DNA from: Synechococcus sp. SynAce01
GTDB taxonomy: Bacteria > Cyanobacteriota > Cyanobacteriia > PCC-6307 > Cyanobiaceae
Assembly: GCF_001885215.1 (NCBI RefSeq)
Contig: NZ_CP018091.1
Location: forward strand, 496,001-560,000
DNA: 64,000 bases
Direction: 5' to 3'
Both the position numbers and the translations under genes were made by a program. Under the pieces are notes generated by a model. It was not told the origin of the DNA and searched no databases. It worked only from the letters and a program-made list of their open reading frames with translations. Of the stretch, positions 1,225 through 62,180 are shown one piece after another. The stretch's first letter is position 1; the number at the start of each line of letters is the position of its first letter.

Positions 1225-4575
<3,351 letters not shown>

Positions 4576-4603
4576 GATCGCATCCATCTCTGATTCGATT
4601 GTT

Positions 4604-5290
4604 TTGACCATCTCCGCCCCCGCCAGCACCGCCCCAGGCACCGACCTGCGCGAGCTCTTCCAGGCGGCCTACCAGAACCGCTACACCTGGGAACCGGGCT
4701 TTGGCGGCTACGCGGGCCGTTGCGTCTGGGAGCAGGAGGGCCAGCGCGCCGAAGGCCGTTTCATGGTGGGCGCCGACCTCAAGGCGAACGTGGAGGGCAT
4801 CGACGACGAGACCATCAGCAAAGCGGTGGGCTCCCAGCTCTGGGAGGTCTGCATCCACCGGGTGCGCCGCAGCTTCGAGCAGACCCACGGCGCCAACACC
4901 TTCACCGCCGGTGACACCAATGAGGTGGGCGTTGAGGTGATCGTGGGCGGCAAGAACAGCGGCGATCGCTATCGCATCGCTAACGATGTGGTGACGATGG
5001 TGCACCGCCACATCCACGGCACGGTGGTGACGATCTACACCGGCAGCACCACCGACACTGGTGCCGGCTACCTCAGCCACACCTACAGCAGCCTCTACAC
5101 CGACCCCGCCAGCGGCGCGGCCAAAGGTGGCAAGAGCAGCTTCACCGACACCTTCGTGCCACTCGGCGGCCAGGGCCCCTGGGTGCTGAGCGAACGGGTG
5201 ATCGCCACCGAGGCCTTCAGCGGAGCCGATGGTGAAAGCCAGCCGGCCAGCCGTCAGACCTTCCGTTTCGAAGAGCTCACGGCCCATTGA
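4604..5290 (+). CDS. DUF3386 domain-containing protein
   Basis: A 228-residue soluble protein of a cyanobacterial/plant-like family without known function. Recognisable parts are LRELFQAAYQNRYTWEPGFGGY at the N-terminus, the tract ETHGANTF-like QTHGANTFTAGD, and a C-terminal VLSERV region ending FEELTAH. No signal peptide or membrane span is seen. No ATG lies between the carB stop and the conserved region, so I start at TTG 4604 (MTISAPAS), which gives a typical family N-terminus; the longer open frame upstream runs inside carB. It lies 28 bases after carB and may be co-transcribed. Confidence 0.82.
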   Translation: MTISAPASTAPGTDLRELFQAAYQNRYTWEPGFGGYAGRCVWEQEGQRAEGRFMVGADLKANVEGIDDETISKAVGSQLWEVCIHRVRRSFEQTHGANTFTAGDTNEVGVEVIVGGKNSGDRYRIANDVVTMVHRHIHGTVVTIYTGSTTDTGAGYLSHTYSSLYTDPASGAAKGGKSSFTDTFVPLGGQGPWVLSERVIATEAFSGADGESQPASRQTFRFEELTAH

Positions 5291-5328
5291 GCCCGCTGGC
5301 TTGAATCCCCAACGGTTGCTTCACGAAA

Positions 5329-5354
5329 GGTGGCTGAATTAGCCTTCAGCCGCC
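5329..5354. terminator. hairpin between convergent genes (possible terminator)
   Basis: A 10-base arm GGTGGCTGAA (5329-5338) pairs with TTCAGCCGCC (5345-5354), with one G-T pair and a six-base loop. It sits between the end of the DUF3386 gene and the end of the leftward DUF6447 gene. There is no T-run on either side, so intrinsic termination is uncertain. A near copy of the right arm, TTCAGCCGCC, follows at once (5356-5365). Confidence 0.3.
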
Positions 5355-5356
5355 AT

Positions 5357-5587
5357 TCAGCCGCCTTCGGGAAGCGCCGTGATGCCCTTGAGGCGTTCGT
5401 TGAGCTGGAACGCCATCGACTGCCGCCCAACCGCCAGCACCTTGAGGGTGTCTTCGTGGAAACGCAACTGGGCATCCGCCACCTGCATGCCACGCACCAG
5501 TTCCTTCACATCGTCTGGAAGGGTGTTGAGGTCGTAGCGCTTGCCCTCGAAGGTGAGCACCGGCGGGAGGGAAGCAGGATTGGTCAA
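5357..5587 (-). CDS. small DUF6447-type cyanobacterial protein
   Basis: A 76-residue protein reading MTNPASLPPVLTFEGKRYDL, then a helical segment DDVKELVRGMQVADAQLRFHEDTLKVLAVGRQSMAF with QLNERLKGI. The pattern of a short beta part (LTFEGKRYD) followed by one long amphipathic helix is that of small cyanobacterial proteins annotated DUF6447. The start is TTG at 5587; no ATG is available in frame. Function unknown. It sits downstream of the ABC exporter on the other side of a 45-base gap and could share its transcript only by reading from further upstream. Confidence 0.65.
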   Translation of the reverse strand: MTNPASLPPVLTFEGKRYDLNTLPDDVKELVRGMQVADAQLRFHEDTLKVLAVGRQSMAFQLNERLKGITALPEGG

Positions 5588-5632
5588 GGCAGTAGCAAGC
5601 GAGGTGAGTGAACGTTACGGCCCGCCTGGCCC

Positions 5633-7372
5633 TCAGGCCGCGACCCGGATCAGCTGTCGATTGCAGAGTTCACGGTAACGGCCGTCGCGGGCCATCAACT
5701 GGTCGTGGCTGCCCTGCTCAACGATGCCACCGGCCTCGAGCACCAGGATCTGGTCGGCTCCCTGCACGGTGGCGAGGCGATGGGCAATCACCAGCACGGT
5801 GCGACCAGCCATCGCTTGCTCCAGGCCCTGTTGCACCGCCTGCTCGGATTCAGCATCGAGGGCGCTGGTGGCCTCATCGAGCAGCAGCACGGCCGGGTTG
5901 CCGAGCACGGCCCGGGCAATCGCCAGCCGTTGCAGTTGACCGCCGGAAAAATTGCTGCCCCGCTCCTCGATCCGGGCCGCGTAGCCACCCGGCAGGGCTT
6001 CGATGAAGTCAGCGGCATTGGCCAGCCGTGCTGCCTGGCGCACCTGCTCGCTGCTGGCTGGACGTCCGAAGCGGATCGCCTCTGCCACCGTTCCGGAGAA
6101 CACGGAGCTCTGCTGGGGCACCAGGGCGATGGCACGGCGCAGATCGGCGGCGCGCAGGCCGGCCAGGTCCTGGCCGTCGAGCAGCACCCGACCGCGCTGG
6201 GCGGTGTTGAAGCGCAGCAACAGGGAAAAGAGGGTGCTCTTGCCGGCTCCCGACGGCCCCACCAAGGCGACGAGCTGGCCAGGGGCCGCTGTGAGCTGGA
6301 GGTTGCGCAACACCGGTTTGGTCGGGTCGTAGCCGAACCAGACGCCCTCCAGGCGCAGCTCCCCACGCACCGAGCCCAGCGGCCTGGCATCGATCGGATC
6401 GGGAGTTTCCACGGCCTCCGCTTCAATCGCCCGTAGGCGCCGCAGCGAGGCCTGACCCTGCTGAAACTCGTTGTAGTTGGTGGTGAGGTGGGAGATCGGA
6501 TCGATCAGCATCAGCAGGGCCGCCACATAACTGCTGAACCCCTGGCTGTCGAGGCCTCCGGCCTGGATCCGCGAGGCGCCGATCAGCAGCACCGAGAGGA
6601 TGCCGGCCGCTTCGATGAAGCCCACCACGGGGTGTTGCAGGGCCAGCAGCTTGAGGGTGCGGTAGCGGGCACGGCGGTGCAGGTCGATCTCCTGCTCGAA
6701 GCGTTGCTGCAACCAGGGTTCAGCGGCGTAGGCGCGCACCAGCGGCAGACCGCTGATCGCTTCGCCCAGCAGCCCCGCCAGTTCACTCACCTGTTTCTGG
6801 CTGCGTTCGGCAGCGGCCATCACCCGGGCACCGAAGGCACTCACCAAGACCGCCACCAGCGGGGCCAGCAGCAAGGTGGCCATCGACAGCTTCCAATCCA
6901 GGAAGACCATGTAGCCGAAGACCACCACCAGCTGCAGCAGGCTCGGGGTGCTGTCTTGGATGGTTTTGTAGATCACTTCACCGACCCGGTCGGCGTCCTC
7001 GGTGAGGCGATAGGTGAGATCGCCGGCCGAGAGCTTCTCGAGCGCGCCGAATTCCAGCTTCTGCAGGCGGGCGAACAACTGGCTGCGCAGGGCCTGGCTG
7101 ACCTGCAGGGCCGGGGAGGCCAGCAGGGTGTCCTGGCCGAACTGGGCCAGTTTCTGCAGCAGAAACACCGCCAGGGCCTGCAGGATCACCCGCAGCACGG
7201 TGGGGAAATCGCCGGCACCGATCGCCGGGATCAGCTGACCGGCCAGCCAGGCCAGCAGGGGCCAGCAGGCCACAAACACCAGCATGCAAACCCCTCCGGC
7301 CCAGAGCCGGCGGCGATGGGGCTTCAGCAGCGGCAACAGACCACGGAAGCCGGCCGGGGAGGGTGCGAGCAT
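5633..7372 (-). CDS. ABC exporter half-transporter (MsbA/multidrug type)
   Basis: A 579-residue fusion of a six-span exporter membrane domain (about residues 20-310) and an ATPase domain (about 335-575), expected to work as a homodimer in the plasma or thylakoid membrane. Walker A is GPSGAGKST near 372, the Q-loop region is ALVPQQSSVF, the signature is FSGGQLQR near 474, Walker B is AVLLLDEATSALD near 495 and the switch histidine lies in VIAHRLATV. The class exports lipids, peptides or drugs; the substrate cannot be read from sequence. The gene stands alone on this strand and diverges from the S4-domain gene. Confidence 0.92.
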   Translation of the reverse strand: MLAPSPAGFRGLLPLLKPHRRRLWAGGVCMLVFVACWPLLAWLAGQLIPAIGAGDFPTVLRVILQALAVFLLQKLAQFGQDTLLASPALQVSQALRSQLFARLQKLEFGALEKLSAGDLTYRLTEDADRVGEVIYKTIQDSTPSLLQLVVVFGYMVFLDWKLSMATLLLAPLVAVLVSAFGARVMAAAERSQKQVSELAGLLGEAISGLPLVRAYAAEPWLQQRFEQEIDLHRRARYRTLKLLALQHPVVGFIEAAGILSVLLIGASRIQAGGLDSQGFSSYVAALLMLIDPISHLTTNYNEFQQGQASLRRLRAIEAEAVETPDPIDARPLGSVRGELRLEGVWFGYDPTKPVLRNLQLTAAPGQLVALVGPSGAGKSTLFSLLLRFNTAQRGRVLLDGQDLAGLRAADLRRAIALVPQQSSVFSGTVAEAIRFGRPASSEQVRQAARLANAADFIEALPGGYAARIEERGSNFSGGQLQRLAIARAVLGNPAVLLLDEATSALDAESEQAVQQGLEQAMAGRTVLVIAHRLATVQGADQILVLEAGGIVEQGSHDQLMARDGRYRELCNRQLIRVAA

Positions 7373-50296: not shown

Positions 50297-50703
50297 AGCT
50301 CACAACGGGAGCGCGCCATCAGATCATCCATCCAGCGGCGTGCCCGCTCGGCATCGGAGAAATCCAGATCCTTCTGTTCGCCATTGCCGACCAGGCGCAG
50401 GCGGCAACTGCCCTGGCTTTCTTCGGTGAGCGGCGCGTCACCGGAGCCGAGGGCCATCAACTCCAGCAATTCGAGCTTGCTGATCACAAAACTGCCCTGG
50501 GGCTTGAGCTGGCCGGCCTCGAAGCTGCTCCAGGTGAGCACGCCATCGAGCAGCCGGGCGGCGCCGCAGCCATCAAGTTTGGCGAGCTCAGAGCCTTCAG
50601 CCCAGCAGCGGAACAGGCGCTGCCGGCGGCGCTCCAGCCAGCCAAGGGCGGTGAGCATCACAAAGACCACCAGCAGGGGCAACCAGAGCAAGCCGTGACT
50701 CAT
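50293..50703 (-). CDS. conserved membrane protein between ddl and ftsQ
   Basis: A 136-residue protein with an N-terminal membrane span ([19 protein letters not shown]) and a soluble domain ([56 protein letters not shown]). It overlaps both neighbours by four bases, so ddl, this gene and ftsQ are translated as a unit. This placement suggests a role at the cell envelope or septum, but no function is known to me. Confidence 0.78.
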
Positions 50704-51812
50704 GGCGCCAACGCCTCTTCAACCATGCGGAACCCATAGTCTCCCGCCGCCTCGACCAACTGGTGCACCAGATCCACAAGTGATACACCGCTGGCCTCCC
50801 ACAGCATCGGCACCATGCTCTGGCTGGTGAAGCCCGGCAGCGTGTTGATTTCGTTCAGCCAGAGGGTTTCAGCGCTTTCATCGTAAAAAAAGTCGACCCT
50901 GGCCAGCCCCGCCGCCGCCACCGCCTGGCAGGCCCGGATCGCCAGTCGTTGCAGTTCCGCCTGAATTCCAGCGGGCAAGCGGGCTGGGATCAGCGTGCGG
51001 CTCAAGCCAGCGGTGTATTTGGTCTGGTAGTCGTACCAGTCGGCCTCGAAGCAGATTTCACCCACCACCGACGCTTGCCACGTTGCTGCGGCGCCTGGCC
51101 CGCTCGCGCGCACCGCACATTCGAGTTCCCGCGCCGTTACCCCCTGCTCCACCACCAGACGGGGATCGAAGCGGGCCGCCTCTCGCAGGCCCTCCAGCAG
51201 GGAGCGGCGGTCTGTGGCCTTGCTGATTCCCACGGAGGAGCCCAGGTTGGCCGGCTTGACGAAACAGGGATAGCCGAGCTGACGCTCCAGCCTGCCCAGC
51301 AGCTGTTCAGGTTCGGCCTCAAGCTCAGCGGCCTGAACCGCCGCATAGGGGACCTGGGGTAATCCGGCGGCGGCGAAGGCGGCCTTCATCGCCTGCTTGT
51401 CCATGCCCACCGCCGAGCCGAGCACCCCGGAGCCCACGAACGGCACCTGCATCAGCTTGAACAGGCCCTGGATCGTGCCGTCTTCGCCATTGGGGCCATG
51501 CAGCACCGGAAACCAGACCTCCACATCCAGCGCTCCCTCGGGGAGCCCCTGGAAGCCATCCCGTTGCGGAGCCGCCGGGAGATCGGCAGCCGTGGCCGGC
51601 ACGCCCTGGCCCAGCACCACCTCGGCAAGGGCGGGAGGCCACCAATGGCCCCGCTGGTCGATGTAATAAGGCTTCACCTCATAGCGCGCGGCATTGGGGC
51701 CGCTGCGCAGGGCGCCGATCACGGTGATCGCCGATCGGATCGACACGGCATGCTCACCTGAGACACCCCCGAACACCAAGCCAAGGCAGCGGGGGGAGCG
51801 GGGCATACGCAA
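50700..51812 (-). CDS. ddl: D-alanine--D-alanine ligase
   Basis: Ddl joins two D-alanines with ATP for peptidoglycan. The 370-residue ATP-grasp product has [89 protein letters not shown], and the metal site [30 protein letters not shown] with the [10 protein letters not shown] end. The [11 protein letters not shown] loop is of the Ddl (not VanA) type. It follows miaB by 60 bases on the same strand. Confidence 0.97.
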
Positions 51813-51872: not shown

Positions 51873-53240
51873 TCAGCGCACGGCCAGGCCGCTGAGCGAG
51901 AAAGCCCGCACCGACTCGATCTGGACCATCACCCGATCACCGGCTTGGTAGATCTTTTCCCCGCCTGTTTGAGTTGCCGGGAAGAAGGTGAGCCGGTTGG
52001 TGCGGGTCCGGCCCATCAGCTGGGAGGGATCGCGGGGGTTGCTCCCCTCCACCAGCACCTCCTCGCGGCGGCCCAGGTAACGGCCACTGCGCCGGCGGGC
52101 TTCACTCTCCACCAGGGCATTGAGCTGCTGGAGCCGCTCCACCTTGACGGCCTCACTCACCTGTCCTGGCCAGGTGGCGGCAGGGGTGTTGGGGCGCGGC
52201 GAGTAGGCGGCGGTGTTGAGCAGGTCGAAGCCGATCTCCTCCACCAGGTCCATGGTGGCGCGGAACTGGGCCTCGGATTCGCCCGGAAAGCCCACAATCG
52301 CGTCGGCACTGATCGCCGCATCGGGCATCTGCTGGCGGATGCGCTCGATGATCCGCTTGTAGCGGCTGACGCTGTAGCCGCGCGCCATTGCCTTGAGCAG
52401 GGCGTCATCGCCGCTCTGAAAAGGGATGTGAAAGTGTTCGCACACCTTGCTCAGCGAGGCGCAGGCGTCGATCAGCCGTTCGGTGAAGTAGCGGGGGTGG
52501 CTGGTGGCGAAGCGGATGCGCTCGATCCCTTCGACGTCGTGAATGTGATGGAGCAGGTCGGTGAGCGTGTGCTGACGCCGACCCTCGGCAGTGATGCCGG
52601 GCAAGTCACGACCGTAGGCATCAATGTTCTGGCCCAGCAGGGTGATTTCGCGGTAGCCCCGAGCCGCCAGGGCTTCGATCTCCTGGCGGATCGTCTCGGG
52701 GGTTCGCGACTGCTCCTGACCCCGCACCGCCGGCACAACGCAATAGGTGCAGCGCTCGTTGCAGCCGTAGATCACATTCACCCAACCGCAGACCGCGCTG
52801 TCGCGGCGGGCCGTGGTGATGTCTTCAAGGATGTGATGCTCGCCGGTGGCCACCACCTGCTGACCGCTCTCCACCTGCTCCAGCAAGATGCCCAGGCGGT
52901 TGGCGTGCTGGGGCCCCATGACCAGATCCAGTTCGGGCACCCGCCGCAGCAGGCTCTCACCCTCCTGCTGGGCCACGCAGCCGGCCACCACGAGGGTGAG
53001 ATTGGGATTGAGGCGTTTGCGCTGGGCCTGGCGGCCCAGGTAGCTGTAGACCTTCTGCTCAGCGTTGTCGCGGATCGTGCAGGTGTTGTAGAGCACCAGA
53101 TCAGCGCTGTGCTCATCGGTTCCAGGGGCATAACCCATGGTTTCGAGAATCCCGGCCATCCGCTCGGAATCCGCCTTGTTCATCTGGCAGCCGAAGGTGG
53201 TGATCCAATAGCTGCCCCGGCGCGTCAGGGTCGGTGTCAT
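51873..53240 (-). CDS. miaB: tRNA-2-methylthio-N6-dimethylallyladenosine synthase
   Basis: MiaB adds the methylthio group to i6A37 of tRNAs reading UNN codons, using two iron-sulfur clusters. The 455-residue product begins with the MTTase domain ([18 protein letters not shown], first cluster cysteine at 18, then [15 protein letters not shown] and [11 protein letters not shown]). The radical SAM motif is [16 protein letters not shown] (about 155-170), and a C-terminal TRAM domain ends the chain. I start at ATG 53240 ([10 protein letters not shown]); the frame is open upstream only across the divergent gene. Confidence 0.95.
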
Positions 53241-53274
53241 CCTCTCAGTCTCAACCACGGCAAACACTGGGTCC

Positions 53275-54378
53275 ATGCAAGGGCGCCTGCAGCGATTTTC
53301 GCTCATCAAAGACGTGCCGCTGGCGATCAGTCGCGGCACGACCGCTTCGGTCGAACGCCTGCTGGTGGAGGTGGAGCACGGGGGCCTGATCGGCCAGGGC
53401 GAAACCGGCGGCTTCGAAACAGGTCATCGTCACTTCAGCACTGACGCCGTGGCCGAGGAGCTGGAGCGGGTGCTGCCCCAGCTGGAGGGCCTGGGTGCCA
53501 ACGGCACAGCCCAGGATCCCTCAGCCTGGCAAGCGCTGGAGCCCCTGCTGGCACCCCTCTCGCCACCGGCCCGCTGTGGCCTGGATCTGGCCCTGCACGA
53601 CTGGTGGGGCAAGCGCCTCGAGCAGCCGCTCTGGCGGCTCTGGGGACTGGAGCGCCAGGCCTGCAGTCCCACCAGCATCACCCTCGGCCTCGGCTCCACA
53701 GAAGCGGTGCTCGCCAGGCTGGAGCGTTGGGGCCAGCAGCTGGGCGTCACTCCGATTCGCATCAAATTGAAACTGGGCAGCCCCGACGGTCCAGGCCATG
53801 ACCGGGCCCTGGTGCGCACAGTTGGCCAGGCCCTGGCGGGGCCGATGGCCGGCAGCCAGGCCGAGCTCCAGGTGGATGCCAATGGCGGCTGGGACCTGGC
53901 CACCGCCTGTCAGCTGATTCCCTGGCTGGCCGAGCAGGGGGTGGTGCTGGTGGAGCAGCCGCTGCCCGCCCTGGCCGATCCGGACGCTGACACTGCCGGC
54001 TTCGCCGCCCTTGACACCCACTGCCCGATCCCGCTGGTGGCCGATGAGAGCTGCTGGGACCTGGCCGATCTGCTGCGGCTGGCTCCCCATGTGGATGGGG
54101 TGAACATCAAGTTGCTCAAAACCGGCGGGCTGCGTGAGGCCGTGCTGATGGCCCAGACGGCCCGCAGGCTCGGTCTCGATCTGATGCTGGGCTGCTATTC
54201 CGACAGCGCCCTTCTCAATGGCGCCGCGGCCCAGTTGCTGCCCCTGGTGCGCTGGCCGGATCTCGACAGCCATCTCAACTTGATCAACGACCGCTTCGAG
54301 GGACCCGATCGCTGCGGCGACCTGGTGCAGCCCTCGCTGCGCCCGGGCCTGGGCGTGATCGCCTCAGCGCGATGCTGA
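53275..54378 (+). CDS. enolase-superfamily epimerase/racemase (dipeptide epimerase, DgcA-like)
   Basis: A 367-residue muconate-lactonising-type member of the enolase superfamily. It has the catalytic KxK near 164-166 (IRIKLKLGS), metal ligands in [11 protein letters not shown] (about 202), VLVEQPLP (about 228) and PLVADESCW (about 255), and the second lysine in [15 protein letters not shown]. This is the pattern of L-Ala-D/L-Glu epimerases and of N-acetyl-D-glutamate racemase DgcA. The next gene, a DUF1611 protein that overlaps it by 7 bases, is the partner seen in the DgcN-DgcA D-glutamate pathway, so DgcA is a reasonable reading. Dipeptide epimerisation in murein recycling is the alternative. 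Confidence 0.85.
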
Positions 54379-55484
54379 GCGCCACAGCGCCGATCGTGCT
54401 GCTGCTGCACGGGGGGCTCGACAACCTCTCCGGCAAGACCGGCCTGGCCCTGTTGCGCTACCGGCCGGGGCCGATCGTGGCGGTGGTGGATCCGGGCCAT
54501 GCCGGCGGCAGCCTGGAGGCGATCACCGGCATCCGGCGGTCGGTGCCCGTGGTGGGCGATCTGCGCTCTTCCCTCGCCTATGGGCCCCAGGTGGCGGTGG
54601 TGGGCCTGGCCCCTTCCGGTGGAACCTTGCCAGCCGGGCTCCGCAACGACCTGCTGGTCGCCCTCGACGCCGGCCTGTCGGTGGCCAGCGGCCTGCACAC
54701 CCGCCTTGGCGACGACCCTGAGCTGGCGGCACAATGCCAGCCGGATCGGTGGATCTGGGATCTGCGCAAGGAACCGCCGGGTCTGGAGGTGGCCAGCGGC
54801 CAGGCCGCTGGCCTGGGCGGCCAGCGGATCCTCACGCTGGGAACCGACATGGCCGTTGGCAAAATGAGCGCCTGCCTTGAGCTGGTGGCCGCAGCGAGGC
54901 GCCAGGGTTGCGCAGCCCGCTTCGTCGGCACAGGGCAAGCAGGCATCCTGATCAGCGGAGCCGGCGTGCCCCTCGATGCGGTCCGGGTCGACTACGCCGC
55001 TGGCGCCGTGGAGCAGGCGGTGCTGCAGGCCGCCGCAGGGGCCGGGCCCAACGCCACCTTGTTCGTGGAAGGCCAGGGTTCGCTCTGCCATCCCGGCTCC
55101 AGCGCCAGCCTGCCCCTGATCCGCGGCTGCCAGCCCACCGGCTTCCTGCTGGTGCACCGGGCGGGCCAGACCCATGTCAAGAACCATCCGAGCATTCCCC
55201 TGCCGCCCTTAGCCGAGCTGATCGCCACAATCGAGCAGCTGGCCACCCTCGGCCGATCGGACCCAGCCAGCCCGGCTCCGCAGGTGCGCGCCGTGGCACT
55301 GAACACGGCGCTGCTCAGCGAAGCGGAAGCCCAGAGCCAGGCCGCCGCCATCGAGACGGAAACCGGACTGACCTGCGCCGATCCGGTGAGAAGCTCCGCA
55401 GCAGCCGATCGGCTGCTGGAAGCGATAAGGGCGAGCGAGGGGATTCGAACCCCCGTATGGCGGCACCACAAGCCGCTGCCTTAA
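54372..55484 (+). CDS. DUF1611 family protein (DgcN-like N-acetyltransferase candidate)
   Basis: A 370-residue protein of the DUF1611 family. The N-terminal domain has IVLLLHGGLDNLSGKTGLALLRYRPGPIVAVVDPGHAG and VVGDLRSSLAYGPQVAVVGLAPSGGTLP. The C-terminal P-loop-like domain has LTLGTDMAVGKMSACLELVAAARRQG, FVGTGQAGILISGAGVPLDAVRVDYAAGAVEQAV and VEGQGSLCHPGSS. In some marine bacteria DUF1611 proteins (DgcN) acetylate D-glutamate and DgcA racemises the product. It overlaps the epimerase gene by 7 bases. Its last 18 codons lie antisense to tRNA-His, so the native stop may have been lost. Confidence 0.85.
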   Translation: MLSATAPIVLLLHGGLDNLSGKTGLALLRYRPGPIVAVVDPGHAGGSLEAITGIRRSVPVVGDLRSSLAYGPQVAVVGLAPSGGTLPAGLRNDLLVALDAGLSVASGLHTRLGDDPELAAQCQPDRWIWDLRKEPPGLEVASGQAAGLGGQRILTLGTDMAVGKMSACLELVAAARRQGCAARFVGTGQAGILISGAGVPLDAVRVDYAAGAVEQAVLQAAAGAGPNATLFVEGQGSLCHPGSSASLPLIRGCQPTGFLLVHRAGQTHVKNHPSIPLPPLAELIATIEQLATLGRSDPASPAPQVRAVALNTALLSEAEAQSQAAAIETETGLTCADPVRSSAAADRLLEAIRASEGIRTPVWRHHKPLP

Positions 55485-55503
55485 CCACTTGGCGACGCCC
55501 GCC
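55430..55503 (-). tRNA. tRNA-His (GUG anticodon)
   Basis: The reverse strand folds as tRNA with anticodon loop CTTGTGG (anticodon GTG) on stem GCGGC/GCCGC. The D arm is GCCAAGTGGTTAAGGC, the T arm GGGGGTTCGAATCCCC. The 5' end carries the extra G(-1) that pairs with C73, the identity mark of tRNA-His. CCA is not encoded. The 5' two thirds of the gene lie antisense to the end of the DUF1611 gene. Confidence 0.93.
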
Positions 55504-56014: not shown

Positions 56015-57373
56015 ATGACGGACCCGACGTTGAACCCAGCGCAAGTGACCACGCCGGACGGCCTGCCGCCATTGAGGCTGCCGCGCAGCCTGCTCGACCC
56101 GCTGCGCAGCGACCTGCCCCGCGCCGATGGCGAAGGACTGGTGAGCGTGCGCCTCGGCCATTCAGCCGGCCGGATCACCAGCATCAGCGCCTACAGCCCC
56201 CAGCCGGGTGAGCTGTTGCCGCTGGCGCTCACGCCCCTACTTGAGCCCCATGCCCACCTCGACAAGGCCTTCACCTGGGAGCGCCACCCCAATGGCTACG
56301 GCACCATGGCCGGCGCCCTGGCGGCCAACCAACAGGAGCACCTCCAGCGCTCACAGGAGCAGGTATGGCAGCGGGGCGAACGGGGCCTGCAGCAGGCGTG
56401 GCGCCAGGGCTCCCGGGCCATGCGCAGCCATGTGGACAGCGCCGGGCCTGCTGCGGAGGCCAGCTGGGAGGCCCTGCTGGACCTGCAACAGCGCTGGCAG
56501 CAGCGGCTGACCCTGCAACTGGTGGCCTTGGTCCCGGTCGGGCACTGGGCCACGACCGCGGGGGCCCGGCTGGCCAGACGCCTGGCCAGCCGGGCCGGGC
56601 CAGCGACGGATGGGAGCTCCCTGCCGATCCTGCTCGGTGGGGTTCTCGGCGCCCCCTTCTCGGCCGATGCCGGCGAGCGAGCCGGATTGCAGGCTCTGCT
56701 GCGCTTGGCTGACGAGCTTGGCTGCGGTGTCGACCTGCACGTCGATGAAAGCAGCGGCGAAGGCGGCAGCGCTGGAGCAGGCGTCGCCCTGGTGGCCCGG
56801 CTGGTGAGGGAGCAGCGAATCGCCATTCCCGTGACCTGCAGCCACAGCGCCAGCATGTCCCAGCTTTCCAGCCGTCGCTGCTTGGACCTGGCCGACGTGA
56901 TCGCCGAGGCGGGGCTGGCCGTGGTGGCCCTGCCTCCCACCAACCTCTGGTTGCTGGGCCACCACGGTGGGGACACGCCGAACTCGCGACCGATGGCGCC
57001 GATCCGCCAACTTCAGCGGGCCGGCGTGACTGTGGCAATTGGTGGAGATAACGTCCAGGATCCCTGGTTTCCAGGCGGTGATTTCGATCCGCTCGAACTG
57101 TTGCGGCTGTCGGTGACAGCCGCCCACCTAGCCCCATGGCAACGCCAGGGTCTGATGCCGTTCACCACCGCTGCGGCCAGGCTGATGGGGCTGGCCTGGG
57201 ACGGGGTGCTGCGCGAAGGGGCGCCCGCTGACCTGATCCTCCTGGCCGCCAGCAACTGGAGCGACCTGCTGGCCCGCTGCCCGCAGCGGCGGGTGCTGCG
57301 CCAGGGCCAGTGGTTGCCCCCCCTGGAGGCTCCGGCCTTGCAGTCGCTGCTCGATGCCCTGCCCGTGGGGTAG
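56015..57373 (+). CDS. amidohydrolase, cytosine-deaminase-like
   Basis: A 452-residue metal-dependent hydrolase of the amidohydrolase superfamily. The metal site HxH is in PLLEPHAHLDKAFTWE (His79, His81), followed by the LDLHVDES-type histidine in GVDLHVDESSGEG, VTCSHSASMSQLS and the catalytic aspartate in VAIGGDNVQDPWFPGG. HAHLDK, HxDE and GxDNxxDxW are features of the CodA cytosine/isoguanine deaminase group. The true substrate (cytosine, pterin or other N-heterocycle) cannot be told. It begins 24 bases after the DUF4359 gene and is followed by an FAD-linked oxidase. Confidence 0.85.
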   Translation: MTDPTLNPAQVTTPDGLPPLRLPRSLLDPLRSDLPRADGEGLVSVRLGHSAGRITSISAYSPQPGELLPLALTPLLEPHAHLDKAFTWERHPNGYGTMAGALAANQQEHLQRSQEQVWQRGERGLQQAWRQGSRAMRSHVDSAGPAAEASWEALLDLQQRWQQRLTLQLVALVPVGHWATTAGARLARRLASRAGPATDGSSLPILLGGVLGAPFSADAGERAGLQALLRLADELGCGVDLHVDESSGEGGSAGAGVALVARLVREQRIAIPVTCSHSASMSQLSSRRCLDLADVIAEAGLAVVALPPTNLWLLGHHGGDTPNSRPMAPIRQLQRAGVTVAIGGDNVQDPWFPGGDFDPLELLRLSVTAAHLAPWQRQGLMPFTTAAARLMGLAWDGVLREGAPADLILLAASNWSDLLARCPQRRVLRQGQWLPPLEAPALQSLLDALPVG

Positions 57374-57426
57374 GGCCACCTGTCAGAACAAGCTCACCAT
57401 GGGCTTCGCCCTCTTTTCTTGCCGCC

Positions 57427-58872
57427 GTGTCCGTCAAGCCTGCCTTGAACCCCTTCCCTGAGGGCCTGCCCGAGGATCTGCCTGCAGCGGCCACGGCAGC
57501 CCAGTTGGCGGCGATCGAAACCGAACTCAGCGAGGCCAGCGGGGCCACCGGCTCAGGGCCAAAACTGGTGCATGACGGGCCAGAGCTGGCGCGCCTCTCG
57601 CGCGACTGTTTCGACTACTCACCGGTGTTGCAGCCCTTGCTGAGCGGCCGATTGGCCCAGCTGGTGGTCAAAGCCAGCCGCCTCGAGGAGGTGCTGGCCG
57701 TGGCCAAGGCCTGCAGCCGGCAGGGTGTTCCGTTGACCCTGCGCGGAAGCGGCACCGGCAATTACGGCCAGTGCGTGCCGCTCGCGGGCGGGGTGGTGCT
57801 CGACCTCAGTGGCCTGAACCGGATGCGGCAGCTCGAGGCCAGCTCTGGGATCGTCACGGCCGAAGCGGGCTGCCTGCTGGCCGACCTCGACCGTCAACTG
57901 TCGGTTTCAGGCCGCTCACTGCGGCTGGCCCCCAGCACCTGGCGCAGCGCCACCGTGGCTGGGTTCATCGCTGGCGGCTCCGGAGGCATCGGCTCCCTGC
58001 GCTGGGGATTCCTGCGCGATCCAGGCAATCTGATCGGCCTGGAGCTGGTGACCCTGGAGGCGGAACCCCGCCTGCTCCAGCTCGATGGAAGAGCAAGCCG
58101 GCCGATCAACCATGCCTACGGAACCAACGGCATCATCACGGCGGTCCGCCTGCCCACCGCCGCCGCCGTGAACTGGCAGCAACTGGTGGTGGAGTTCAGC
58201 CACTGGGAGCGCGCCCTCGAAGCCGCCCGGATGTTGCCTGGCACAGCCCTGCTGCTCCACAGCCTCTGCCTGCTGGAGGAAGCTGTGGCCCGTCAAATGC
58301 CAGCCATCGGCGGCCAAGGAGCAGGCGGCTGCCCAGCGGCCCGTGGCCATCGCCTGCTGCTGTTGGCGGCGCCCGATACGCTCGAAATCCTGCCCCACCT
58401 GCTGGCGGATCTGGGCGGGACCCTCATCTGGCAGGCGCCGGAACAGGGCCAGCGGGGGCTGCCGCTGCGGGAACTCTGCTGGAACCACACCACCCTGCAT
58501 GCGCGGGCCCATGACCCGGGCTGGACCTACCTGCAGATGCTGCTGCCCCAACCGGAAGCACCCTTCCTCTCGGCCCTGAAACAGCGCTGGGGCGAGGATC
58601 TGCTCTGGCACCTTGAGGGGGTGCGGCAACAGGGGAGCCAGCGGCTGGCGGCCCTTCCGCTGGTGCGCTGGCGCGGCGCAGAGTCCCTTGCCGAGCTGAT
58701 CGCTGAGGTCCACCAAAACGGCGGCCTGCTGTTCAACCCCCACGTCTTCAACGTCGAGGACGGCGGACTCGGTGTGGTCGATGCCGACCAGGTGTCAGCC
58801 AAACATTGCTATGACCCGGCCGGACTGCTCAACCCAGGCAAGTTACGGGGCTGGGCTGAGCGAAAGCGCTGA
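57427..58872 (+). CDS. FAD-linked oxidase (GlcD/PCMH-type FAD-binding)
   Basis: A 481-residue flavoprotein. The FAD-binding PCMH domain shows LVVKASRLEEVLAVAKACSRQGVPLTLRGSGTGNYGQCVPLAGGVVLDLSGLNRM (about 80-135), AEAGCLLADLDRQL, LAPSTWRSATVAGFIAGGSGGIGSLRWGFLRDPGNLIGLELVT. The C-terminal half ends with VVDADQVSAKHCYDPAGLLNPGKL, the usual family end. It probably oxidises a 2-hydroxy acid or alcohol. I start at GTG 57427, before the conserved region; no close ATG exists. Spacing to the amidohydrolase is 53 bases. Confidence 0.87.
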   Translation: MSVKPALNPFPEGLPEDLPAAATAAQLAAIETELSEASGATGSGPKLVHDGPELARLSRDCFDYSPVLQPLLSGRLAQLVVKASRLEEVLAVAKACSRQGVPLTLRGSGTGNYGQCVPLAGGVVLDLSGLNRMRQLEASSGIVTAEAGCLLADLDRQLSVSGRSLRLAPSTWRSATVAGFIAGGSGGIGSLRWGFLRDPGNLIGLELVTLEAEPRLLQLDGRASRPINHAYGTNGIITAVRLPTAAAVNWQQLVVEFSHWERALEAARMLPGTALLLHSLCLLEEAVARQMPAIGGQGAGGCPAARGHRLLLLAAPDTLEILPHLLADLGGTLIWQAPEQGQRGLPLRELCWNHTTLHARAHDPGWTYLQMLLPQPEAPFLSALKQRWGEDLLWHLEGVRQQGSQRLAALPLVRWRGAESLAELIAEVHQNGGLLFNPHVFNVEDGGLGVVDADQVSAKHCYDPAGLLNPGKLRGWAERKR

Positions 58873-60820: not shown

Positions 60821-62005
60821 TCAAGCGGCGGCGATCGCCTGCAACGCCTGCTCCAGGCGTGACACGGCCAGGTTCAGCTGGCGGGGCTTGATCACCAGGG
60901 GTGGCACGAAGCGCACCACCCGCGGTCCAGCGGGCACAACCAGCAGGCCGAAATCGATCGCCTTGCGCACCACCTCAGGTGCTGCCGGGCCATCGGCCCG
61001 CAGCACCAGGCCCTGCAGCAAGCCCCAACCCCTCACCCCTTCGAGCTGCTGGGGGCGGCGGCTGACCAGATCAGCCAGCAGTTTCTGCAGCAGCACACCC
61101 ATCTGCTCCACATGCGGCACCAACAGGCGGCGTTCCAGTTCCTGGGCCACGGTGAGCGCAGCGCGGCAGGCGAAGGGATTGCCGCCGAAGGTGCTGGCAT
61201 GGTCGCCGGGGCGGAAATGGTCGACGGCCTGCTTGACGGCAAGCGCCCCGATCGCGATGCCACCGCCAAGCCCCTTGGCCAGGCTGATCGCATCGGGCTC
61301 CACCCCAAGCTTCTCGTAACCCCAGAGGCGTCCGCTCCGGCCCATGCCGATCTGCACCTCATCAAAGATCAACAGGATGTTGCGCTCATCGCAGAGCTGG
61401 CGCACCCGCCGGAAGAAGGCCGGATCGCCGGGGTTTACCCCCCCTTCACCCTGCAGGGGCTCGAGCATCACGGCAGCTACCCGGGGGCCACTGGCTTCGG
61501 CTTCGGCAAGCAAAGCCTCAAAAGCCTCAGGGTCGTTGTAAGGAAAGAAGCGGAATCCTTCCACCATCGGCTCGAAGCCCTGGTGGTAGCGGGGCTGACC
61601 GGTGGCGCTCACCGCCGCCAATGTGCGGCCGTGGAAGCTGGCCTGGGCCGTGAGGATGACCGGCCGCTCAATGCCTCGCACGAGATGGCCATGCTTGCGG
61701 GCCAGCTTGATCGCCGCTTCGTTGGCCTCGGCTCCGGAATTACAGAAAAAGACGCGATCGGTGCAGCTGCGGCTGGTGATCCAGGTGGCGAGCAGTTCCT
61801 GTTCCGGGATCCTGTACAGGTTGGAGACATGCTGTAGGCGCCCGAGCTGGCGGCTCAGGGCCCGACGCATCACCCGATCGCTATGGCCAAGAGCGCAGGT
61901 GGCGATGCCGGCGACGCAATCGAGGTAGCGATTTCCGCGACTGTCCTTGACCCAGACCCCCTTGCCCTCCACCAGCTCAAGAGGAAACCGGGTGTAGGTG
62001 TCCAT
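60821..62005 (-). CDS. argD: acetylornithine aminotransferase
   Basis: ArgD makes N-acetylornithine from N-acetylglutamate semialdehyde with PLP. The 394-residue product begins MDTYTRFPLELVEGKGVWVKD and has NSGAEANEAAIKLARKHG, ASFHGRTLAAVSATGQP, FDEVQIGMGRSGRLWGYEKLGVEPDAISLAKGLGGGI (PLP lysine in SLAKGLGGG, near residue 243) and STFGGNPFACRAAL. The true start is ATG 62005. The frame continues upstream but there it is antisense of tRNA-Leu. FDEVQIGMGRSG has I-G-M where most enzymes have T/Q-G; this is unremarkable for cyanobacteria. It directly abuts folC. Confidence 0.95.
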   Translation of the reverse strand: MDTYTRFPLELVEGKGVWVKDSRGNRYLDCVAGIATCALGHSDRVMRRALSRQLGRLQHVSNLYRIPEQELLATWITSRSCTDRVFFCNSGAEANEAAIKLARKHGHLVRGIERPVILTAQASFHGRTLAAVSATGQPRYHQGFEPMVEGFRFFPYNDPEAFEALLAEAEASGPRVAAVMLEPLQGEGGVNPGDPAFFRRVRQLCDERNILLIFDEVQIGMGRSGRLWGYEKLGVEPDAISLAKGLGGGIAIGALAVKQAVDHFRPGDHASTFGGNPFACRAALTVAQELERRLLVPHVEQMGVLLQKLLADLVSRRPQQLEGVRGWGLLQGLVLRADGPAAPEVVRKAIDFGLLVVPAGPRVVRFVPPLVIKPRQLNLAVSRLEQALQAIAAA

Positions 62006-62070
62006 CACCGCACTTTGTGGCGGCGTGGCGGACTCGCCTGGGCGAGCCAGGGCTGTGCGGCCAGGTGCAA

Positions 62071-62152
62071 TGGGAGCGGTGGGACTCGAACCCACAAACC
62101 CGAAGGCGCTCGATTTTGAGTCGAGTCCGTCTACCAATTCCGGCACGCTCCC
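62071..62152 (-). tRNA. tRNA-Leu (CAA anticodon)
   Basis: A class II tRNA on the reverse strand. The acceptor GGGAGCG pairs with CGCTCCC and the discriminator is A. The anticodon stem CTCGA/TCGAG encloses CTCAAAA (anticodon CAA), a long variable arm CGCCTTCGGGTTT follows, and the T arm is GTGGGTTCGAGTCCCAC. The D arm has GCCGGAATTGGTAGACGG typical of leucine tRNA. It lies between argD and murA on their strand. Confidence 0.93.
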
Positions 62153-62180
62153 ATGGGCAAAACTTTAGCCGCGCCTGTGC

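Follow-up and report, generated by a model that had tools for sequence, protein, structure and literature searches.

A conserved epimerase-DUF1611 gene pair in picocyanobacteria: a candidate route for D-glutamate salvage

What can an enolase-superfamily epimerase accomplish together with a DUF1611 protein in a phototroph? The question is raised by two overlapping genes of Synechococcus sp. SynAce01, hereafter pair A, situated in a window (the whole stretch of DNA analysed) of 64,000 nucleotides. A first-pass annotation had likened them to DgcA and DgcN of marine heterotrophs and had proposed that they return peptidoglycan D-glutamate to arginine synthesis. The features relevant to the pair itself are the following:

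53275-54378, plus strand: first gene of pair A, an enolase-superfamily, N-acyl-glutamate/dipeptide epimerase-like protein of 367 aa
54372-55484, plus strand: second gene of pair A, a DUF1611 protein of 370 aa, DgcN-like acetyltransferase with the P-loop GTDxxxGK
55429-55502, minus strand: tRNA-His(GTG), overlapping the final 56 bases of the DUF1611 open reading frame in antisense

The existence of the pair and of its overlap is borne out: both open reading frames are found at these coordinates on the same strand and share 7 bases (ATGCTGA, 54372-54378), the ATG of the DUF1611 gene sitting within the final codons of the epimerase gene. This arrangement is typical of translational coupling, which probably occurs here as well. 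The epimerase matches Pfam MR_MLE_N and MR_MLE_C, both above cut-off, while its partner matches DUF1611 with 219 bits (cut-off 25) and DUF1611_N with 84 bits (cut-off 22.6). A promoter and terminator scan gave nothing above chance. At the 3′ end, the stop codon of the DUF1611 frame falls within the tRNA-His gene, and residues 357-370 have a pLDDT <50 in the predicted model; this tail over the tRNA, ending in HKPLP, occurs in 9 of 53 two-gene loci, corresponding to 8 genomes (L001 and L003 are identical). The tRNA-His itself is present in all 11 scanned loci of the order, around pair A or its place. Apparent DUF1611 remnants (residues ~348-370) in genomes devoid of the pair were rejected, as they are the tRNA-His gene.

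The association of the two genes was then considered across 150 sampled genomes of the same order, 80 of which contain DUF1611 and 70 of which do not. The 80 genomes hold 104 DUF1611 domains, every one beside a racemase-type gene (same strand, gap <1000 bases): 80 are located directly 3′ of an epimerase gene, 24 directly 5′ of a gene for a PLP racemase, and none elsewhere. Given this 104/104 adjacency, the association of DUF1611 with racemases is not due to chance. Pair A is thus conserved among relatives, being found in 80/80 DUF1611-bearing genomes of the order, one of which (G029) has a fused remnant consisting of the epimerase front and the DUF1611 end in a single open frame. Broken pieces of both genes are retained in G126, and epimerase pieces in G058 and G004; in two genomes at least (G126 and G029), decay has therefore affected both members of the pair.

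Outside the order, we opened 46 cyanobacterial DUF1611 loci, an uneven sample made of the 30 best-scoring ones, with flanks of 1.5 kb, and 16 selected by hand. An adjoining epimerase gene on the same strand is present in 38, upstream of DUF1611 in 35 (with a gap of ~950 bases in L203) and downstream in three (L207-L209), which belong to genomes of another class. Two further loci (L204, L206) have a PLP racemase beside DUF1611, and in six (L175, L179, L183, L196, L213 and L217) no adjoining racemase is found in the opened stretch, L217 having an epimerase piece ~2 kb from DUF1611. In a phylum-wide search for DUF1611, 133 of 194 genomes gave no match. Four of 14 control genomes, Synechococcus elongatus among them, matched DUF1611.

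The assignment of the DUF1611 protein to DgcN, put forward by the first-pass annotation, stands as regards lineage and fold, and falls short as regards the curated model. The only NCBIfam match of the protein is DgcN (NF041892), at 216.3 bits against a curated cut-off of 480; for reference, a Rhodobacterales DgcN scores 549 bits. The protein has both DUF1611 domains and the P-loop GTDxxxGK by which DgcN is recognized, and the P-loop lysine is invariant in the 26 DUF1611 rows compared. In a tree of 43 DUF1611 rows, the cyanobacterial pair-A proteins, those of the other class and the DgcN proteins (27 rows) fall on one side with a support of 99/97, apart from a second lineage (100/100) and from archaeal and Thermotoga proteins; the support of this clade rests on the tree built with the better model, since FastTree joins DgcN and pair A at 0.31 only. 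The predicted model (pLDDT 89.8) finds full-length fold matches in 2obn (Z 46.6), 2g0t (Z 37.0) and 7xrj (Z 35.8), the last entitled N-acetyltransferase DgcN-25328. The first is Ava_3511 of Anabaena variabilis, a cyanobacterial relative with 51-52% identity and a solved structure, whose entry title refers to a DUF1611 family protein and gives no function. The C-terminal part of the model resembles P-loop proteins such as Soj/ParA, cobyrinic acid a,c-diamide synthase and dethiobiotin synthetase (Z 13-14), which we take to be of the SIMIBI class. DgcN is reported to be a GNAT-type enzyme; a GNAT-type fold is absent from the listed fold matches of our model, which does not exclude one.

The epimerase tells a different story from DgcA. 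Six residues (K164, K166, D201, E227, D257 and K279) are invariant in 27/27 aligned epimerases and are taken as the catalytic residues, which would then be intact; a two-lysine, Mg2+-assisted chemistry is reported for enolase-superfamily epimerases (PMC5808125). The proposal that this protein is DgcA therefore keeps the adjacency to a gene of the DgcN lineage and the conserved catalytic residues, and loses its phylogenetic part. The score with the DgcA model NF042940 is 159 bits, below the curated cut-off of 400, whereas two Rhodobacterales DgcA reach 504 and 490. Below its own cut-off this model was rejected as a diagnostic: a Roseovarius epimerase that does not adjoin dgcN scores 191, so a value in this range proves nothing. 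The curated cut-offs of the dipeptide epimerase subfamily, which the first-pass annotation would have set against DgcA, are missed as well; the scores with the Ala-Glu epimerase models are 112.3 bits for NF011708 (cut-off 343) and 58.4 for NF041118 (cut-off 500). As to the trees, joining the cyanobacterial epimerases with DgcA is rejected (p-AU 3.7e-8, and 0.007 when E. coli YcjG is added); DgcA clusters with YcjG at 100/100, and the cyanobacterial enzymes cluster with a second Roseovarius epimerase, again not adjoining dgcN (100/97). Judged from its sequence, the pair-A epimerase is not a DgcA by descent. The epimerases of L207-L209 were rejected as sisters of the cyanobacterial ones (p-AU 0.002), and their placement with DgcA and YcjG is not rejected (p-AU 0.10).

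The pocket motifs of the cyanobacterial epimerases, GCYSDS and DLDSHLNL, have GCMVGSS and DLDGPLLL as counterparts in DgcA, and DLDSHLNL is shared with the second Roseovarius enzyme. In dipeptide epimerases, the free amino group of the substrate is bound by a DxD motif close to the C terminus. This motif was rejected as a discriminator between DgcA and Ala-Glu epimerases, since DgcA also has it, the DLD motif being invariant in all 27 epimerases.

These data bear on a first alternative, in which the epimerase would act on muropeptides as an L-Ala-D/L-Glu epimerase and the DUF1611 protein would serve another step of peptidoglycan-peptide recycling, for example on D-Glu or a dipeptide. The DLD motif fits this view, as does the closest solved relative by sequence, 3iji of Bacteroides (143.7 bits and top sequence match), which is nearly identical (722 bits) to a Bacteroides protein annotated as dipeptide epimerase and adjoining a C40 peptidase; like YcjG/YkfB and 3iji, moreover, the pair-A enzyme has the catalytic residues of the enolase superfamily. 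In passages of PMC3605383, cyanobacterial genes are counted among the Ala-Glu epimerase genes, with DUF1611 left unmentioned. On the other hand, no NlpC/P60 or dipeptidase, nor any other murein-peptide hydrolase, is found among the eight window proteins scanned, the NF011708 and NF041118 cut-offs are missed as reported above, and GCYSDS and DLDSHLNL are unlike the aligned rows of the Ala-Glu type. This alternative also leaves unexplained why the epimerase is accompanied by DUF1611 in 80/80 DUF1611-bearing genomes of the order, and we regard it as possible but not likely, with odds of about one in four.

The DgcN loci of other bacteria offer a more direct comparison. Of at least 584 such loci, the 80 best-scoring ones were fetched, nearly all from Rhodobacterales by title. 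An epimerase gene lies downstream in 77, and in the other three (L100, L145, L165) the contig stops 50 to 420 bases past DgcN; two of the downstream epimerases were scanned, and both are above the DgcA cut-off. As in the DgcN/DgcA operon of marine Rhodobacterales, pair A consists of adjoining same-strand genes for DUF1611 and an enolase-superfamily racemase, with a DUF1611 protein of the same clade and fold; unlike that operon, it is arranged epimerase-first, and its epimerase is of another subfamily, with other pocket motifs and scores below the curated cut-offs. The epimerases paired with the one DgcN-like lineage therefore come from two subfamilies or more, perhaps from three, and both gene orders occur. 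No other finding argues as strongly for a functional link between the two activities as this exchange of the partner epimerase beside a constant DUF1611; we infer from it that the cyanobacterial pair has the same role as DgcN/DgcA.

The genomic settings of related genes point to peptidoglycan-derived D-Glu as the source. The Ruegeria TM1040 record shows DgcN, DgcA and then a D-amino-acid transaminase. In one halophilic archaeon the pair adjoins NlpC/P60 and dacB, a context that would also suit a muropeptide epimerase, and in another it is accompanied by a D-aminoacylase and a second epimerase. Members of the same epimerase superfamily found without DUF1611 adjoin C40 or NlpC/P60 peptidases in Bacteroides and Deinococcus, which is the usual setting of Ala-Glu recycling. 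In the genome under study, a single gene of the Asp/Glu racemase family is present, the expected MurI. The archaeal setting with D-aminoacylase is that of a Haladaptatus plasmid (L225:2124-7078), on which D-aminoacylase, dipeptide epimerase, DUF1611 and a second dipeptide epimerase follow one another in series. Three of the 11 opened plasmid DUF1611 loci have no racemase annotated alongside, among them that of a third halophilic archaeon.

Taken together, we favour, with a probability of roughly 55%, the reading of pair A as a DgcN/DgcA-like system for D-glutamate salvage through N-acetyl-glutamate, with substrates assigned by analogy. In the known pathway, D-Glu is converted to L-Glu via DgcN and DgcA (as mentioned in PMC10845958), the two steps being listed as EC 2.3.1.312 and 5.1.1.25 in PMC11747546. 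In the cyanobacterium, the DUF1611 protein would acetylate D-Glu to N-acetyl-D-Glu, presumably with acetyl-CoA as donor; the epimerase would then invert the alpha carbon by the Mg2+-assisted two-lysine chemistry, yielding N-acetyl-L-Glu, and this product may be deacetylated or may join the N-acetylglutamate pool. The same logic of acylation followed by inversion might also serve a different amino acid or acyl group. The distinct pocket motifs of the epimerase would agree with such a shift, and a second DUF1611 lineage is already teamed with a different racemase (see below); the pair-A DUF1611 protein, however, clusters with DgcN and not with that second lineage, making a change of substrate rather improbable.

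The salvage reading leaves the destination of N-acetyl-L-Glu to be considered, which the first-pass annotation had placed in arginine synthesis on account of argD, ~5 kb downstream. The neighbourhood comprises the following genes:

50700-51812, minus strand: ddl (D-Ala-D-Ala ligase), a member of the conserved block
51873-53339, minus strand: miaB, divergent neighbour; open reading frame as listed, the true start being probably further in
60821-62005, minus strand: argD with its start corrected (inferred), syntenic neighbour outside pair A
62070-62153, minus strand: tRNA-Leu(CAA), overlapping the 5′ part of the listed argD frame on the same strand

The block starts with ftsQ, a small gene, ddl and miaB (all on the minus strand), continues with pair A, tRNA-His and DUF4359, and extends past the latter through an amidohydrolase, an FAD oxidase, a pentapeptide-repeat gene, folC and argD. 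The argD frame as listed (60821-62146, minus strand) starts inside the tRNA-Leu gene; since several relatives match only from residue 38-47 onward, translation probably begins at the ATG at 62005. Among hand-chosen pair-bearing loci of the order, miaB and ddl are present in 16/16 (ddl being displaced in L253) and argD in 15/16. This synteny, together with the fact that the predicted product is an arginine intermediate, would favour a direct supply of arginine synthesis with N-acetyl-L-Glu. Yet argD is encoded on the minus strand, separated from pair A by five protein genes, and in all 12 opened loci without intact pair A the order argD, folC, FAD oxidase, amidohydrolase, miaB is retained (three of the 12 have no match for DUF4359 and two none for the pentapeptide gene). 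Because argD persists without pair A and occurs in 61/61 genomes searched, many of them lacking the pair, it is a neighbour through general conservation of synteny and not a partner of pair A, and the arginine route was rejected as a specific link. The idea that arginine synthesis could be entered without a free L-Glu step finds no support either. ArgJ, which in the cyclic arginine pathway makes N-acetylglutamate by transfer to free L-Glu, is encoded in the genome, and arginine synthesis would therefore still depend on an L-Glu step. All in all, a direct feed into arginine appears very improbable. As a side observation, the cytosine-deaminase-like amidohydrolase and the FAD-binding oxidase at 56015-58872 of the window are both kept in 12/12 loci without intact pair A.

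Among the matches listed from open-access sources, we found no literature on pair A, or on the second pair described below, in cyanobacteria, and little on D-Glu turnover by phototrophs. Peptidoglycan D-Glu is a notable pool of marine organic matter. With pair A present in many cyanobacteria and absent from 70/150 genomes of the order, the turnover of D-Glu by phototrophs would become testable in laboratory cyanobacteria. What goes beyond known annotation is the replacement of the epimerase partner and the existence of a second module, pair B, located elsewhere in the same genome:

L002:982-3341, corresponding to C1:985779-988138: pair B, a DUF1611 gene and a PLP racemase gene overlapping by 4 bases
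L002:982-2151: DUF1611 gene of pair B, sharing these 4 bases with the alanine/ornithine-type racemase gene

The racemase matches Pfam Ala_racemase_N above cut-off, is of PLP fold type III and has the PLP lysine K36, which is present in 33/33 racemase rows. It resembles the ornithine racemase Orr in this lysine and in its score with NF040742 (305.6 bits), and differs in missing the curated cut-off of 480 and in overlapping a DUF1611 gene; around four Orr-family genes outside the pair-B group, the gene tables, which are incomplete, list no DUF1611 within 4 kb. With a model of modest quality (pLDDT 68.6), the best Foldseek matches are beta-hydroxyaspartate and D-threonine aldolases and alanine racemases. 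Pair B is found in 24/150 genomes of the order, always alongside pair A, and in two opened cyanobacteria outside it. Both genes are present in 16/16 compared loci, around which no neighbour is conserved, the most widely shared family occurring in 4/16 loci some kb away (open reading frames over the pair excluded).

The relatives of the pair-B DUF1611 protein are located on three Rhodobacterales plasmids (58-59% identity) and on five Vibrio plasmids (52-54%), and the racemase gene follows in all seven records checked, one Vibrio record standing outside this count. The trees of the two proteins are concordant at the main splits, and the Rhodobacterales copies are closer to the picocyanobacterial ones than other cyanobacterial copies are, which suggests transfer of pair B as a unit. 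Against a fixed pairing, no racemase is annotated alongside DUF1611 in Streptomyces or in Vibrio nigripulchritudo, the latter protein falling in or beside the pair-B lineage (90/88; exclusion not rejected, p-AU 0.19).

Because PLP racemases require that the amino group be free, inversion in pair B must come before acylation or run counter to it, contrary to what is proposed for pair A. On these grounds we tentatively envisage DUF1611 as the constant half of a kit for N-acylation and alpha-carbon inversion, for which racemases would have been recruited from unrelated families, with pair A recycling D-Glu and pair B working in the opposite sense. In the latter case, the racemase might yield a free D-amino acid, perhaps D-ornithine-like, to be trapped by the DUF1611 paralog as an N-acyl-D-amino acid; this would amount to an undescribed metabolite or detoxification route, carried in part by mobile DNA of marine bacteria and picocyanobacteria. 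This scheme as a whole is rather doubtful. One acetyltransferase family teamed with racemases of unrelated fold provides a concrete handle on a domain of "unknown function", and the pattern suggests that a further D-amino-acid module, carried in part by plasmids, exists. Finally, three conserved hypothetical genes (102-138, 117 and 275-284 aa), without homologs in the 12 cyanobacterial pair-B loci compared, lie directly 5′ of pair B on the Rhodobacterales plasmids (L219-L221, ~4270-5840).
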